From positions 1 through 20,643 of the forward strand of contig CALFBU010000129.1 of assembly GCA_937951455.1 (NCBI GenBank): 20,643 bases of DNA, written 5' to 3'. Source of the DNA: an uncultured Rhizobiaceae group bacterium (lineage in GTDB: Bacteria; Pseudomonadota; Alphaproteobacteria; Rhizobiales; Rhizobiaceae). Below, one piece after another: positions 970-7,523 of the stretch; the stretch's first letter is position 1, and every line of letters begins with the position of its first letter. Under the pieces are notes generated by a model. The model was not told the DNA's origin and made no database searches. It saw only the letters and a list, made by a program, of their open reading frames with translations. The position numbers and the translations under genes were made by a program.

Positions 970-1811
970 GTCGCGTCCACCAATTTCTGTAATCTTGATA
1001 TCAGAATATCGCGTCCCTCGTCTAATCCTTTATAGGCAAGTTCGGCCCCATTCATCATGTTCAATAATCGGATAAACCCTTGCGCAATCTCAGCTTTGTC
1101 ATTGCGTTGTTTCAAAGCATCAAACGGGTCCACATAAATGCGTATTGTAAAAAGAATATCGCCAGACTTGGGCAGCTTGGTCAGCGTTTGCCGCTCGACT
1201 CGTAAATAACAATCTGTACGCTGGTTCATGTGTTCGCTGGAACGATCATCATGATAAAGCTCATCATCATTATAGATAGACCAGTTAAACCGTTCGACGG
1301 GCATTCCGATTTGCAAGTTGTCAAAAATTCGCTCAATCATGCTTGCATTGCGCGACCCTTCATTAAAATTTGGCACAGGCGCATGCACATCATGCAAAGG
1401 CTTGCCGATTTTATCCTGCAGCGCCCAGGACGAAGGAAAACAAACAGAGCCGGCTACCAACCGCCAACCCTGCTCAGATTTTCGCATAATTACCAGATCT
1501 TCTTGCACTAACATTGCAGCTTGCAGCAGCGGCGATAAAGAACGATCAACCTCTCGCATAGGTAGCCCATGTTTTTCAATGTAATCAGAGATTAAATCAA
1601 AAACTTCCAGCTGCGCATTTTGCGTGTCTTCTTTTGCCTGAAAAACCTGTTCAGGAATTTCCTTCATCAGTCGTTTTTTCTCAGTCAAAAAGAAATCAAA
1701 CGTATCGTCAAAATCCAACCAAGCACGTTCGTCAAAAGGCCTCAGCCCAAGTTTGAAAAGTGCCTCCGAACCATCGTAAGGCGTGTGTTTTAGATTAGAA
1801 TGATGCTGCAA
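966..1811 (-). CDS. DUF3445 / heme-dependent oxidative N-demethylase-like protein
   Basis: This 281-residue protein resembles the DUF3445 family, now known as HODM-like heme-dependent oxidative N-demethylases. These enzymes use a PAS-type fold with heme b to demethylate small amines. Support comes from conserved-looking blocks: HTPYDGS near residue 9, a segment around 124-150 containing [12 protein letters not shown] and [11 protein letters not shown], and [13 protein letters not shown] near 175-187. The reading frame begins with TTG inside the last codons of ruvC (17-base overlap). No ATG lies upstream of the conserved HTPYDGS block, so TTG is the likely start. The TGA overlaps the ruvA ATG. 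Family members often sit with reductase or ferredoxin-like subunits; none is visible here. The substrate is unknown, and the placement between ruvC and ruvA gives no metabolic hint. Family assignment is from memory of motifs and is fairly firm. Confidence 0.82.
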
Positions 1812-2304
1812 TCTTCATTTCCATGTGGCCACGTTGATGCGCGTGACAAATCGCAATGGCCAAAGCATCAGCTGCATCATCTGAATCATATTTCGCCTTG
1901 GGCAAAAGCATGTTGACCATGAGTTTAATCTGCGCCTTGTCTCCATGGCCAACACCAATCACGGTTTTCTTCACCGCGTTCGGCGCATATTCCGCAACCG
2001 GCAAACCACTACGTGCAGGCACAAGCATGGCAATGCCCCTCGCCTGCCCAAGCTTAAGGGTAGCTTTTGCATCCTTGTTGACAAACGTGTGCTCCACCGC
2101 TGCCTCATGCGGCATATGCTGGTGAAGCACTTCACTCAATCCGTCATGTAATTGACACAGCCTTGAAGCCAAATCGGCCTTTGCATCAGAACGCACAGTA
2201 CCCGCCGCCACAAAGGTAAGAGAAGAGCCTAGTGACTCCAAAACGCCCCACCCCATGTTACGAAGGCCGGGATCAATCCCAATTATTCGAATCGCTTCTT
2301 GCAT
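1795..2304 (-). CDS. ruvC: Crossover junction endodeoxyribonuclease RuvC
   Basis: RuvC is the dimeric endonuclease that resolves Holliday junctions by symmetric cuts. The 169-residue length is typical. The RNase H-like fold is marked by [12 protein letters not shown] near residue 9 (catalytic Asp11), [11 protein letters not shown] near 68 (Glu71) and [15 protein letters not shown] near 142 (Asp143 and Asp146). The four acidic metal ligands are thus all present. The start ATG is preceded by AGGGTG at 2310-2315 with a five-base gap, a good ribosome binding site. It is the first gene of a tightly overlapping unit running into the demethylase-like gene, ruvA and ruvB. In many alphaproteobacteria yebC lies directly upstream; here three plus-strand genes separate them. 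Confidence 0.97.
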
Positions 2305-2438: not shown

Positions 2439-3467
2439 ATGATTGAAACGATTGATTTGGTAATACGGTCAGCCTGTGTAGGCATATGTGCCCTTATGGC
2501 AATTCACTTTATATCGATCAGACCTGTTTCCCGTAAAACAGTATCCACAATAGTGTTTTTAGTATCAGCGTCTGGAATGATCATCGCAACCTCACTACTT
2601 TCCATGCAATTCGGACAGCAATCCGCAACCTGGGCTTTGGTTTCCACGATTATGATATCCACCAGTCCGGTATTCATCGCATGGGGCTTGCTTGAACTGT
2701 TTGAAGACAATCTGAAAATCCAGCCCTGGCAGATTGGGTTTGTAACCTTTTCTGTAGCAACTCATTTCATGGGTGGCATTCATCCCGTTTTTGATACGAT
2801 ATGCCATGTTACTTCTTTGATGATTTATGGCTATCTGTTTTACATCACGATCACGACCCGGAAACACGATTTGGTCATGGCGCGCTGCTTGTTCAGGCTC
2901 TGGTTTATGGGGGGTGCTGCCTTGGCAGGTTTCTCCTTTACTGCACTTCACTGGTATTTTGGCGACTTTGGTTTACCGGATTGGTATTATGTTTTCAAAG
3001 CATCTGTTTTGCTTACTCTCACCATCATCTTCGCCTATTGGGCGCTTAAGGTTCGTGAACATGTTTGGGCATTGCCGCAAAATTTTGCCATGAAGAGACC
3101 TGAGACCCTAGTCCCGGCAGAAGTTGCCCTATTGACCAAACTGCAAGCCTCGATGAAAGAGGACGTCTGGCGCGAAGAAGGGCTCACCATTCGAAAACTT
3201 GCCGAGAACCTTGATGCGCCAGAGCATCGTTTGCGCAAGGTCATCAACCAAGGGCTTGGCTATCGTAACTTCGCAGCTTTCGTAAACGAGCATCGCATCG
3301 GAGCAGCCTGTGAAGTTCTGGCTGATCCGGTTAAAGCCGATATTCCCGTTATCACTATCGCTTATGAAGTTGGCTATGCCTCACTTGGACCTTTCAATCG
3401 TGCGTTTAAGGATATCGTTGGCGAAAGTCCTACCGAGTATCGCAAACGATTGTTTTCACCCGCTTAA
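2439..3467 (+). CDS. Membrane-anchored AraC-family transcriptional regulator
   Basis: The protein has 342 residues when started at the ATG at 2439. An open frame continues upstream through the antisense of ruvC, but the promoter position favours this start. Residues 1-205 carry about seven hydrophobic segments (roughly 6-26, 36-56, 67-87, 98-112, 121-139, 154-174, 186-205) with short loops. A linker leads to a C-terminal AraC-type double helix-turn-helix (about 248-338), with LTIRKLAENLDAPEHRLRKVI and the hallmark second motif IAYEVGYASLGPFNRAFKD followed by GESPTEYRK. This is the layout of one-component regulators whose sensor is an integral membrane domain. The signal is unknown. The next gene downstream, a small secreted protein, has three 20-bp-spaced elements in its promoter, so it is the best candidate target. 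The regulator could also act elsewhere; autoregulation is possible. Confidence 0.9.
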   Translation: MIETIDLVIRSACVGICALMAIHFISIRPVSRKTVSTIVFLVSASGMIIATSLLSMQFGQQSATWALVSTIMISTSPVFIAWGLLELFEDNLKIQPWQIGFVTFSVATHFMGGIHPVFDTICHVTSLMIYGYLFYITITTRKHDLVMARCLFRLWFMGGAALAGFSFTALHWYFGDFGLPDWYYVFKASVLLTLTIIFAYWALKVREHVWALPQNFAMKRPETLVPAEVALLTKLQASMKEDVWREEGLTIRKLAENLDAPEHRLRKVINQGLGYRNFAAFVNEHRIGAACEVLADPVKADIPVITIAYEVGYASLGPFNRAFKDIVGESPTEYRKRLFSPA

Positions 3468-3483
3468 ATCTTTCTAAAACAAA

Positions 3484-3543
3484 ACTCGCCGATTTTGAAA
3501 AAAGCTGATCATTTTTGAAAAAGGCTTATCATTTTCGAACGCG
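3484..3543 (+). promoter_or_regulatory. Three direct repeats with 20-bp period, candidate AraC-type operator
   Basis: Three copies of a TTTT(Y)GAA-type element fall exactly 20 bp apart, with the G at 3497, 3517 and 3537. The last two copies match over most of their length: GCTGATCATTTTTGAAAAAG at 3504-3523 and GCTTATCATTTTCGAACGCG at 3524-3543. The first (3484-3503) keeps GATTTTGAAAAA. AraC/XylS proteins commonly bind direct repeats about two helical turns apart. The third copy covers the place expected for the -35 element of the downstream promoter, as for an activator. That the adjacent regulator binds here is inference. Confidence 0.7.
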
Positions 3544-3559
3544 GCGAGAATCCTTTCCA

Positions 3560-3565
3560 TAAAAT
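3560..3565 (+). promoter_or_regulatory. Candidate -10 element of the small secreted protein gene
   Basis: TAAAAT at 3560-3565 stands about 17 bp after the end of the third 20-bp repeat. No good TTGACA-like -35 is present; GAACGC lies at the -35 distance. A promoter with a poor -35 overlapped by an activator site would fit positive control by the neighbouring AraC-type protein. Confidence 0.4.
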
Positions 3566-3607
3566 TTCTAAATTCAAGGTGTCCTCAAAAAACGAAAGGA
3601 AGACACC

Positions 3608-3832
3608 ATGAAAACGAACACAAAATTAATCGCCCTTACCACAGCCACACTCATTGCATTGGCACCGACAACAGCAAGCGCGATGAGCTTTTCAGACAAT
3701 GTTTTTAGCTGGCCTACAGATTATAAAAGCGAAAAAGCTTCTACAGCCACCAGCACCTTTGATGGCAAAGTGAAAAACCTTGAAATCAAAAATCCTACAA
3801 AAAACAAAACACAAACTCAAAAGCGTAAATAA
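3608..3832 (+). CDS. Small secreted protein of unknown function
   Basis: A 74-residue protein with a clear Sec signal peptide: basic start MKTNTK, hydrophobic core about 7-20, and cleavage expected after TASA at residue 25. The mature part of about 49 residues is hydrophilic. It begins MSFSDNVFSW, is rich in Lys, Thr and Ser, and ends in a strongly basic tail; it has no cysteine. AAAGGA at 3595-3600 lies seven bases before the ATG, a good ribosome binding site. A hairpin terminator follows at 3848, so the gene is probably monocistronic. Upstream are three spaced repeats likely bound by the adjacent AraC-type membrane regulator. I recognise no family. It could be a periplasmic stress or envelope protein, or an exported peptide; the sequence does not decide. 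Confidence 0.8.
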   Translation: MKTNTKLIALTTATLIALAPTTASAMSFSDNVFSWPTDYKSEKASTATSTFDGKVKNLEIKNPTKNKTQTQKRK

Positions 3833-3847
3833 GTGTACAGCCCATGA

Positions 3848-3882
3848 ACTTGGCGGGACAGTTTTCCGCCAAGTCATTTTTC
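3848..3882 (+). terminator. Intrinsic terminator after the small secreted protein
   Basis: ACTTGGCGG at 3848-3856 and CCGCCAAGT at 3866-3874 form a perfect nine-pair GC-rich stem with a nine-base loop, followed by CATTTTTC. It lies 16 bases past the stop and separates this gene from the exporter. Confidence 0.8.
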
Positions 3883-3970: not shown

Positions 3971-4735
3971 TTGGAACTAGCCCTTACCTATCTTTCTCAA
4001 ACACCGATGCAAATTGTCATTGCCATTGTATTCATCACTGGCATTGTTCGTGGCTTTGCGGGCTTTGGCTCTGGCATGATCATCGGCCCTTCCACTGCTT
4101 CTTTCTTCGGCCCACAAATGGCGTTGATCATGATCACGGTTATGGATGCCATCCCAACACTCACGCTAGTTTGGAGCGCTCGTCGTGATGTAAACTGGAA
4201 AGAGATTATCCCAGTTGTTATCGGCTATGCGGTTCTGGCTCCCCTCGGCATTTGGCTTTTGGTAACAGGCGATGCCACTGCGCTTCGCTGGTTTATATCC
4301 ATCAGCATTTTAATGGCTGTTGCAATTCTTTGGTCTGGCTGGAAGTACACAGGCTCCCGTTCCAATGCGGTATCTTTCTCCTTTGGCGGATTGGGCGGCT
4401 TTATGGGTGCAGCGGCAGCCCTTCCTGGCCCTGCGGTTCTTGTTTATTGGCTGGCGAGTGCTGCAAAAGCCGTCACCGTCCGCGCAAACATGATTTACTA
4501 TCTGTTTCTGACAGACCTCATCGTCATCGTCGGCTACATTTTCGCAGATCTTTATACCATCGAAGGGATTGTGCGAGGATTACTTTGCGTGCCGGGATAT
4601 TTCATCGGCATACAAATCGGCGCAAGATTTTTCTCAGGCGCCAGCGACGCAACCTATCGCCGCGTCGCATTCCTCATGATTTTACTGGCAGCGATCACCT
4701 CATTGCCAATGCTCGACAGCGTCCTATCCAGATAA
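3971..4735 (+). CDS. TauE/SafE-family membrane exporter (sulfite exporter-like)
   Basis: A 254-residue very hydrophobic protein with about seven or eight membrane segments. The N-terminal block IVFITGIVRGFAGFGSGMII (about 20-38) carries the glycine-rich G-F-G-S-G signature of TauE/SafE-type transporters. A second related glycine-rich half begins near residue 137 (FGGLGGFMGAAAALPGP). Members export sulfite, sulfoacetate or other small organic anions; the actual substrate cannot be read from sequence. The frame opens with TTG at 3971, with a stop just upstream at 3941. The first ATG is at 4007 and would cut into the first helix's lead-in, so TTG is preferred, although neither has a clear ribosome binding site. 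Its stop is two bases from the stop of yebC on the other strand. No sulfur gene is nearby. Confidence 0.88.
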   Translation: MELALTYLSQTPMQIVIAIVFITGIVRGFAGFGSGMIIGPSTASFFGPQMALIMITVMDAIPTLTLVWSARRDVNWKEIIPVVIGYAVLAPLGIWLLVTGDATALRWFISISILMAVAILWSGWKYTGSRSNAVSFSFGGLGGFMGAAAALPGPAVLVYWLASAAKAVTVRANMIYYLFLTDLIVIVGYIFADLYTIEGIVRGLLCVPGYFIGIQIGARFFSGASDATYRRVAFLMILLAAITSLPMLDSVLSR

Positions 4736-5635: not shown

Positions 5636-6898
5636 TCATCCAAACACCCGTCCAGCATGAATGCCCAACCCTTGAGCGACCGCGTCCATAGAACGGTGTT
5701 TTACAAAATTCGCATGGGGGAAAACATCTGAAACTGTTTTAATCAGAACAGGCGTATTGGAAGCGCCTCCTGTTAGCATGATGGTGTCGATTTGGTCTGC
5801 GGTGATATTGGCGGCAGTTGTTACTTCTTTAAGCGCGTTTGAAATTTTATCCATGATATCTTCAACGCATAATTCAAAGGCGTCACGCGTGACGTTTGTG
5901 TTTAAGCCTGTTTCGATAAAGCCAAGATCCAGGTTTGCATGATCGCTGTCGCTCAAACCAATTTTTGCAGATTCAACTGTAGCGCAGATTTGGTGCGCTA
6001 GTCTTTCTTCCATGACATACAGTAATCGCTCTAAAAGCGGTTTATCAAGCGATTGCCTCAGCAAGTCTTGCGCAAGTCGAATGTTTTTTGGATCGTAAGC
6101 AAAAATGATTTTGTGCCAGGTCGATAAATCTATAAAAATGCTTGGCGGAACTTCTGAAATCGTGTTGCCAAAATCTGATTTAAGCTTGCTTTCATACCCA
6201 AGCAGGCGCATCGCAGAAACGAGATTAAGCTGCACATCCAAATTCGTACCGCCAATGCGCACGCCCCAATTAGCGAGCACATCGTCTTTTCTATCCAAAG
6301 CCTTATCTGCGTCAGGGCGACATCGGATGACTGAAAAATCTGACGTGCCCCCACCGATATCAACGACCAATATAATCTGTTCTTGCTTGATTGTGCGCTC
6401 ATAACTTAGCGCGGCTGCAATCGGTTCGTATTGAAACTCAATGTTCTTGAATCCAACATCTTGAGCAATAGATTTCAGTCTTGAAAGTGCTGTTTCATTG
6501 ATATCATCACCTGATCCAACAAATTGCACCGGCCTACCCAGCACAACATTTTCAAGATCGCTTTGCGTTGCACTTTCGGCAGAACTTTTAAGGTGAGCGA
6601 CAAGCTGCGCAATGGCTTCATTAAACTTTACAACGTTACGGCCCGCTCTCGTTTGCATCTCATAGGTTGAGGAGCCAAGCAGGCTTTTTAAGCCCCGCAA
6701 CAAACGCCCCTCGCCGTAGGCCACATATTCAGAAATCGCCTCACGCCCAAGCAACATATTGCCACCATCAAAAGGATAATAAAGTGCACTTGGCGTAGTT
6801 TTATATCCTTGCTCTAGCGCAACCAGTTCATACCCATATTCATGCTTAATACTGATGGCAGAGTTTGATGTGCCAAAATCTATGCCACAATGTTTCAA
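5636..6898 (-). CDS. Hsp70-family ATPase of YegD type, no substrate-binding domain
   Basis: This is an actin-fold Hsp70-like ATPase of about 420 residues that stops where the DnaK nucleotide-binding domain would end (AQGLGIHAGRVFG). The substrate-binding domain is therefore absent, as in E. coli YegD. Nucleotide motifs are intact: phosphate-1 GIDFGTSNSA at the N-terminus, phosphate-2 VVDIGGGTSDFSVI near residue 180, and the adenosine motif IMLTGGASNTPV near 375. LGRPVQFVG and FQYEPIAAALSYE also fit YegD. I place the start at TTG 6898, which gives MKHCGIDFGTSNS. A GTG at 6931 would add 11 residues and overlap the upstream oxygenase gene by 29 bases. It follows that oxygenase gene closely, so they are probably co-transcribed. 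Client and role are unknown. Confidence 0.9.
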   Translation of the reverse strand: MKHCGIDFGTSNSAISIKHEYGYELVALEQGYKTTPSALYYPFDGGNMLLGREAISEYVAYGEGRLLRGLKSLLGSSTYEMQTRAGRNVVKFNEAIAQLVAHLKSSAESATQSDLENVVLGRPVQFVGSGDDINETALSRLKSIAQDVGFKNIEFQYEPIAAALSYERTIKQEQIILVVDIGGGTSDFSVIRCRPDADKALDRKDDVLANWGVRIGGTNLDVQLNLVSAMRLLGYESKLKSDFGNTISEVPPSIFIDLSTWHKIIFAYDPKNIRLAQDLLRQSLDKPLLERLLYVMEERLAHQICATVESAKIGLSDSDHANLDLGFIETGLNTNVTRDAFELCVEDIMDKISNALKEVTTAANITADQIDTIMLTGGASNTPVLIKTVSDVFPHANFVKHRSMDAVAQGLGIHAGRVFG

Positions 6899-6902
6899 AA
6901 AA

Positions 6903-7523
6903 CTATTCCCAACCGTAATTAAAACTGACACTGATACGGTCTTCTTCCGCCATGTTCATCGGCACTTCGTGGCGGAGCCAGCTTTCCCATAGTAAAACAT
7001 CACCTACGTCTGGTTTAACGTAAATAAAACTTCGCATTTCATCACGTGCGTCCGCGTTTCTTGTCGGTGCTGCCATCATCATGGCGTGGCGGGGATCTTC
7101 GAATTTTATAGCACTTGCATCTTCTGGCATGGCAACATAGGTGGTTCCGCTGATAACGCTATGGGGGTGCAAATGGGAGGTATGAATACCCCCTTCTGGC
7201 AAGATGTTAATCCAAAGCGCGTTGAGTTTTAGCTTCTTGCCATCAAGATCAAATTCAAGATCCTCGGCAAACTCTGCGACGTGTTTATCTAGCGCTTTAA
7301 CCAGATCCTTAAAAATCGGAAACCGCCAAGGAAGATCATCCAGCGAGGCATAGCTTGTATAACCCGGAAAATCATTGGCTTCACACCAGTTCTGGCCTGC
7401 CTCATCATCTTCTGCAATGGAAAGACACGTGGTTTCAAGCTCAGCTTGGTCGATCTTTTTACCAAGCTCAGAGAGCTTTGCGCGGTAAAGACGGGTAACA
7501 AAAAGGGAATCAATTTTGGACAT
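6903..7523 (-). CDS. Putative 2-oxoglutarate/Fe(II) oxygenase (TIGR02466 / 2OG-FeII_Oxy_5 type)
   Basis: A 206-residue protein with the double-stranded beta-helix signature of a family annotated as putative 2OG-Fe(II) oxygenases. A histidine cluster with His114, His117, His119 and His121 (GIHTSHLHPHSVISGTTYV) should supply iron ligands. The distal segment GDVLLWESWLRHEVPMN carries His185, and Arg196 in DRISVSFNY is the likely 2-oxoglutarate anchor. The start is ATG at 7523, with AAGAG directly before it and no clear spaced ribosome binding site. The gene is followed after four bases (or with overlap) by the YegD-type Hsp70 gene, suggesting an operon. Such oxygenases hydroxylate proteins or small molecules; the substrate is unknown. 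A link to the chaperone-like neighbour is speculation from position only. Confidence 0.88.
   Translation of the reverse strand: MSKIDSLFVTRLYRAKLSELGKKIDQAELETTCLSIAEDDEAGQNWCEANDFPGYTSYASLDDLPWRFPIFKDLVKALDKHVAEFAEDLEFDLDGKKLKLNALWINILPEGGIHTSHLHPHSVISGTTYVAMPEDASAIKFEDPRHAMMMAAPTRNADARDEMRSFIYVKPDVGDVLLWESWLRHEVPMNMAEEDRISVSFNYGWE

Follow-up and report, generated by a model that had tools for sequence, protein, structure and literature searches.

How a transcription factor held in a membrane reaches the promoter that it controls is an open question, and it is one on which the regulator family described here may bear. In a 20,643-nucleotide stretch of an uncultured Rhizobiaceae group bacterium (contig CALFBU010000129.1; this whole stretch is called the window below), a gene for an AraC-type membrane protein is followed by three repeated elements and a gene for a small secreted protein (Table 1). 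Does the first gene control the second through these elements, as an earlier note on this DNA had supposed, and is the small protein the effector of the system or its signal? The comparisons presented below make it likely that the regulator is a transmembrane activator of the one-component kind whose single dedicated target, an envelope gene, can be exchanged; the whole would form a self-contained cassette.

Table 1. Coordinates of the cassette, its control elements and the genes at its borders (window positions)
Feature	Position	Strand	Evidence or remark
ruvC, left border, outside the cassette	1795..2304	-	adjoins tauE in G005, G007 and G009
Transmembrane AraC-type regulator, 342 aa	2439..3467	+	HTH_18 match, AF2 model, homologues
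Three-box operator, period 20 bp	3490..3541	+	self-similarity, genus alignment, matrix scans
Box 1, CGATTTTGAAAA	3490-3501		
Box 2, CATTTTTGAAAA	3510-3521		
Box 3, CATTTTCGAACG	3530-3541		
Probable -10 element, TAAATT	3569..3574	+	alignment of six genus promoters
Ribosome-binding site, GAAAGGA	3594..3600	+	invariant in 6/6 genus promoters
Small secreted protein, 74 aa	3608..3832	+	coding evidence, AF2 pLDDT 60
Terminator-like stem-loop with T-tract, 3' of the small gene	3848..3874	+	stem of 11 pairs
TauE/SafE family permease gene (tauE), right border, outside the cassette	3971..4735	+	present also without the cassette

The regulator carries a predicted transmembrane region and a DNA-binding domain in one chain, the combination that defines transmembrane regulators. 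Although its open frame extends upstream to a GTG at 2232, the ATG at 2439 is the point where the homologues begin. Residues 1-204 form a seven-helix bundle, which a linker (about 205-225) joins to an AraC DNA-binding domain (about 226-339). A profile search places HTH_18 at residues 254-337 (E 1.1e-14; 54.9 bits, above the cut-off of 33.6), while HTH_AraC, at 26.1 bits, falls slightly below its cut-off of 26.6; both profiles match all 55 members of the regulator family examined (Pfam, E <= 0.01). The protein thus belongs to the AraC/XylS family by its DNA-binding domain, and its sequence matches in the PDB are AraC domains, for instance those of AraT, ToxT and Rns. The AF2 model (pLDDT 89.4, pTM 0.65) contains seven long helices (2-26, 32-50, 63-88, 96-113, 116-143, 147-174 and 181-204), and together with the HTH_18 match it confirms the fusion of a seven-helix membrane domain to an AraC domain that had been read from the letters. 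Hydropathy alone gives six peaks in this protein and between four and seven segments across the 55 members (seven in 24, six in 19, five in 11 and four in one). The amino end would lie outside and the carboxyl end inside, since Lys and Arg reside mostly in loops that would then be cytoplasmic. Three residues between helices 5 and 6, D144, L145 and R149, are invariant across the 55 rows; they may sit on the presumed inner face and take part in relaying the signal to the DNA-binding domain. No Pfam or NCBIfam family was found for the seven-helix part of the window protein, and the sole Pfam matches among the 55 members (E <= 0.01) were HTH_18, HTH_AraC, PilB3_C and Sigma70_r4, with no transmembrane family and neither 7TMR-DISM nor LytTR. 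Relatives number 1352 proteins at E <= 1e-10, some of which are perhaps alike in the DNA-binding domain alone.

The neighbouring gene encodes a signal peptide of about residues 1-25 (by eye) and a mature part with an SWPTDY motif and a basic C-terminus. Among four genomes its third codon position is the most variable in all six pairs, with dN of 0.13-0.26 and dS of 0.78-2.4, and by this pattern of substitution the protein is under purifying selection. AF2 yielded no confident fold beyond the signal-peptide helix (pTM 0.14), and no Pfam match was found; a PepSY hit (NCBIfam) of 16 bits against a cut-off of 60 was sub-threshold and taken as chance. At E <= 0.1 the protein matches 24 protein clusters, one of which, P0001, is probably its own. 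The codon-position pattern and the ribosome-binding site kept in every genus promoter bear out the 74-residue signal-peptide protein that had been proposed. Its supposed own terminator fares less well: a stem and a T-tract are indeed there, but the scanned region holds two such sites against 2.2 expected by chance, so that the stem proves little by itself.

What occupies the place of the small gene in other genomes bears directly on its role. A scan of species genomes returned at least 579 relatives, of which the best 80 loci were kept; those among the matches listed belong to Rhizobiales, Rhodobacterales, Sphingomonadales, Caulobacterales-type genera and a few Gammaproteobacteria. The locus set, which includes loci from these best 80, comprises 102 of 110 loci after removal of eight that length and position marked as duplicate contigs (L062-L065, L074, L085, L104 and L124), and 96 of the 102 lie outside the genus. 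The partner is a fatty-acid-hydroxylase-like (FA_hydroxylase) membrane enzyme in 60 of the 102, found within 300 bp of the regulator frame in 56 (47 downstream, nine divergent) and farther away in four; Pfam confirmed FA_hydroxylase in all six that were tested, three of them fused to DUF2147. Small secreted proteins are the partner in 31 loci and fall into four sequence groups, A (that of the window, six loci), B (10), D (8) and R (7). The remaining 11 have other partners, and L111 (lipoprotein-like) as well as L095 and L137 (UrcA-family) are counted there. The sequences of groups B and D both end in [FY]P...G and could form a single family. A recurring aromatic-proline pair (SWPT, FPSAP, YPSAP, FPEPG) was judged too short to count as common sequence.

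On a quick tree of the regulators each small-protein group occupies one side of a branch, with support of 91-100, and the partner changed between small protein and hydroxylase at least three times. A single clade of all small-protein loci is rejected (AU test on the quick tree, p 1.9e-42). The clade of 26 that contains the window's group also includes Rhodobacterales loci of hydroxylase and R type and, from the window's own family, one hydroxylase locus (L039). Could the small protein nevertheless be a ligand of the seven-helix domain, as the earlier note had also entertained, or a feedback inhibitor, closing an autocrine or envelope-feedback loop? The bundle may resemble receptor folds, and small exported proteins of several groups adjoin regulators in 23 of 30 same-family loci and in seven Rhodobacterales loci. 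By eye, however, no sequence is common to the groups, and a hydroxylase-like partner is found instead in 58 of 80 relatives' loci (the best 80 of at least 579 relatives). As most relatives examined have such an enzyme in the partner slot, a peptide encoded there is not a general requirement of the bundle; a ligand role is accordingly unlikely, and the small protein would better be regarded as one of several interchangeable targets.

If the small gene is a target, its promoter should be where the regulator acts. The three boxes are spaced by exactly 20 bp, as had been claimed, and their self-similarity scores 34 of 48, whereas none of 20 shuffles exceeds 26. In the six genus promoters the -10 element reads TAAATT in four, TAAGTT in one and TAGATT in one, and it sits 29 bases past the last GAA, that of box 3, in all six. 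The scan found no recognisable -35 and no sigma-70-type promoter ahead of the small gene. With the -10 so located, the -35 would be expected at about 3546-3551, which puts box 3 just upstream of it; the earlier placement of the last element over the -35 therefore has to be corrected, as the flank CGGCGAG (3542-3548) is the sole part that reaches this position. Boxes 1 and 3 double as an inverted repeat (3485-3501 / 3532-3548), in which 79 of 102 base pairs match in register over six genomes and 19-42 when the arms are slid by 1-3; two of its positions are changed on both sides, one in G003 and one in G004. Furthermore, box 3 fits the operator matrix about equally well reversed in five of the six genus operators, which makes a plain triple direct repeat uncertain, and given the inverted repeat, box 3 may be read backwards in the genus. 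A second, unrelated tandem duplication, also with a 20-bp period, lies about 75 bp upstream of the regulator at locus L003 (G006) and scores 34 of 48, its shuffles reaching 27 at most.

The inverted repeat with its two compensated positions could suit DNA looping or a symmetric complex, and the regulator might act as a repressor of the adjacent gene or by looping between boxes, rather than as an activator. Activation from a position upstream of the promoter core is common among AraC proteins. The boxes occupy just such a position, and with no -35 found, the arrangement points to activation rather than repression; repression or looping seems about as improbable as the ligand role.

Activation through the boxes presupposes that the boxes belong to the regulator, and the earlier note had named the conservation of the pair and of the repeats in relatives as one check. 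Within the family the regulator occurs in 26 of 297 genomes (E <= 1e-20), a count that may miss a few regulators as up to seven candidates per genome were scored. The triple pattern, at three or fewer mismatches, was found in 10 family genomes, eight of the 26 with the regulator and two of the 271 others; it adjoins the regulator in all eight, the reversed control gave none, and the matches in the regulator-negative G009 (three mismatches) and G301 (two) were taken as chance. This strict pattern is absent from the other 18 regulator-positive family genomes. An earlier matrix had been trained on ten operators from loci that it then scanned and was not independent; a matrix built from five genus operators is, and outside the genus it scores higher on the flanks of 78 of the 96 loci than on any of 20 dinucleotide shuffles of those flanks. 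When periods of 16-26 were tried, 20 bp came out best in 76 of the 96. Among the 18 loci that failed to beat all of their own shuffles is L131, where the operator lies outside the scanned 700 bp. The pair, the spacing and the operator thus recur far beyond the genus, and the refuting outcome that the earlier note had set for such a comparison, a lack of conservation in relatives, did not occur.

The operator can also be assigned to one of the two genes. Within 330 bp upstream of the partner or in its first 60 bp, an operator scoring at least 10 was found for 67 of 91 located partners, leaving 24 without. It reads toward the partner in 59 of the 67 (53 of 61 outside the genus, which itself contributes six of the 59) and fits better reversed in eight, at a median of 66 bp before the partner start codon; some distances and misses are rough, hydroxylase starts having been set by script at the first ATG or GTG. 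The same direction prevails for partners that lie downstream or upstream of the regulator and for divergent ones. At the majority of loci the operator can therefore be taken as that of the partner and not as that of the regulator.

Might the repeats serve another, more general factor, with the regulator acting elsewhere? The box core is nearly palindromic and A/T-rich, and binding of the regulator to the boxes is inferred from conservation. Three findings speak against a general factor: the pattern has a single match in the 2.3-Mb assembly of the organism itself at three or fewer mismatches, it is concentrated in regulator-positive family genomes in the proportions given above, and the sites follow the regulator through differing gene orders and partners. 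Such a factor is consequently a poor prospect, and we retain the regulator as the protein that probably binds the boxes. No second operator site that would indicate a wider regulon was found in this assembly, which is about 72% complete.

Within the genus the cassette behaves as a unit. Six of 12 genomes carry the regulator, and all six have the operator and an adjoining protein of 74-75 aa with a signal-peptide-like start, those of G003 and G004 being too diverged for homology search and recognised by position. In G005, G007 and G009 a distance of 147-223 bp between ruvC and tauE leaves no room for the regulator and small gene; neither cassette gene is there, and the genomes have no regulator match at E <= 1e-20. 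As G002 and G008 have no tauE match and G011 meets a contig end, the locus was judged in nine of the 12 genomes: six have both genes, three neither and none a single one. The weak terminator evidence would sit well with chance neighbours, an orphan small gene having come to lie behind an unconnected AraC gene, but a pair kept in six genomes and jointly absent from the same site in three, purifying selection on the small gene and a conserved operator make this reading negligible. In G010 the regulator (L005/L038, G010:C18:79919-80872) has an in-frame gap of about 20-24 residues over the first helix-turn-helix, and both the operator and the small gene are kept; this would be odd if the regulator must bind the operator, and an assembly fault may be responsible.

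Domain architecture, conserved pairing, the operator with its spacing and direction, joint presence or absence and the exchange of partners can all be read from the sequences compared, and they suggest the following scheme. The regulator would span the inner membrane, the amino end facing outward and the AraC domain the cell interior, and a membrane or periplasmic cue would alter the seven-helix bundle. The AraC domains of two or three molecules would then occupy the three boxes upstream of the neighbour's promoter and recruit RNA polymerase, a step proposed on the ground that no -35 is present there. The target would be a small exported protein in the genus and a fatty-acid-hydroxylase-like membrane enzyme in most relatives examined. 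Adjacency may matter here, as a membrane-bound factor could reach a promoter whose product is exported nearby. The hydroxylase partners suggest membrane state as the cue. A broader proposal is tentative and somewhat more doubtful than not: that receptor-like seven-helix transcription factors, widespread and mainly alphaproteobacterial, read membrane state directly and switch on a single envelope effector apiece, encoded next to them, and that disordered secreted proteins of small size have repeatedly displaced a membrane-lipid-modifying enzyme while sensor and operator stayed the same. If it were true, both effectors would answer the same membrane problem.

Several known systems resemble this one in part. 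At the promoters that they activate, regulators of the AraC/XylS family bind half-sites spaced by about two turns, usually as two boxes. The present regulator has the C-terminal AraC DNA-binding domain in common with them, whereas a seven-helix membrane domain replaces the usual soluble N-terminal domain and the boxes are three. In 7TMR-DISM and LytS-type receptors a seven-helix membrane sensing domain is joined to a signalling output; here the output would be DNA binding itself, and the seven-helix part has no Pfam family in the 55 members.

Membrane-bound AraC regulators have been described before. In Saccharophagus degradans, a 2008 report counts 16 of 31 AraC-type proteins as membrane-bound, places several near polysaccharide- or carbohydrate-degradation genes that they are thought to regulate and proposes them as detectors of extracellular polysaccharides (PMC2386152). 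As described there, they too are one-component AraC-type membrane proteins with target-like genes adjacent; in contrast to the envelope partners here, and compared by description alone, their neighbours are carbohydrate-degradation genes (PMC2386152). Transmembrane transcription regulators such as ToxR and VtrA are an established class, in which a single protein of the cytoplasmic membrane both does the sensing and contacts DNA, as would be the case here (PMC10269533). The word AraC is absent from the main text of that account, and its supplementary domain tables may include AraC domains; relative to the class as presented there, the seven-helix part, the triple 20-bp operator and the exchangeable adjacent target would be additions (PMC10269533). 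HigX of Caulobacter is likewise an alphaproteobacterial membrane-embedded factor tied to the envelope with no apparent periplasmic domain, but by its description it has four helices, a LytTR domain, an inverted-repeat motif and several target promoters (PMC13384398). Searches of open-access literature yielded no paper on a regulator family with a triple operator and an exchangeable partner. The earlier statement that no system of this exact form had been described therefore stands to that extent, with the reservation that membrane-bound AraC regulators beside target-like genes were already on record, as reported for Saccharophagus (PMC2386152).

With an operator that can be recognised and a target next door in many members, the family would lend itself to tests of sensing, DNA capture and the exchange of effectors in environmental species that are in culture, such as Oricola indica JL-62 (L124, small-protein type) and Ruegeria (L067/L069, hydroxylase type). 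Several small secreted proteins that are orphans, and the FA_hydroxylase-DUF2147 enzymes as well, would also gain a first frame, namely that a membrane sensor co-regulates them. The fusions of the latter kind are located at L039:158-1378, L066:1632-2825 and L118:5429-6685, and DUF2147 also occurs as a separate gene next to the hydroxylase, for instance at L105 and L117, a recurrent pairing. Several loci contain more than one frame matching the regulator profile (two at L098, three each at L118 and L128, and four at L123, two of which are short or weak), as tandem regulator paralogues before a hydroxylase gene. The gene next after the operator in the two Planktomarina loci (L131:2323-2922 and L139:1773-2381) encodes a protein of 200-203 aa; that of L131 had no Pfam or NCBIfam match. 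Elsewhere in the window, the minus strand at 5636-7523 encodes an Hsp70/actin-like protein of 431 aa in a frame that overlaps with a 2OG-Fe(II) oxygenase gene.
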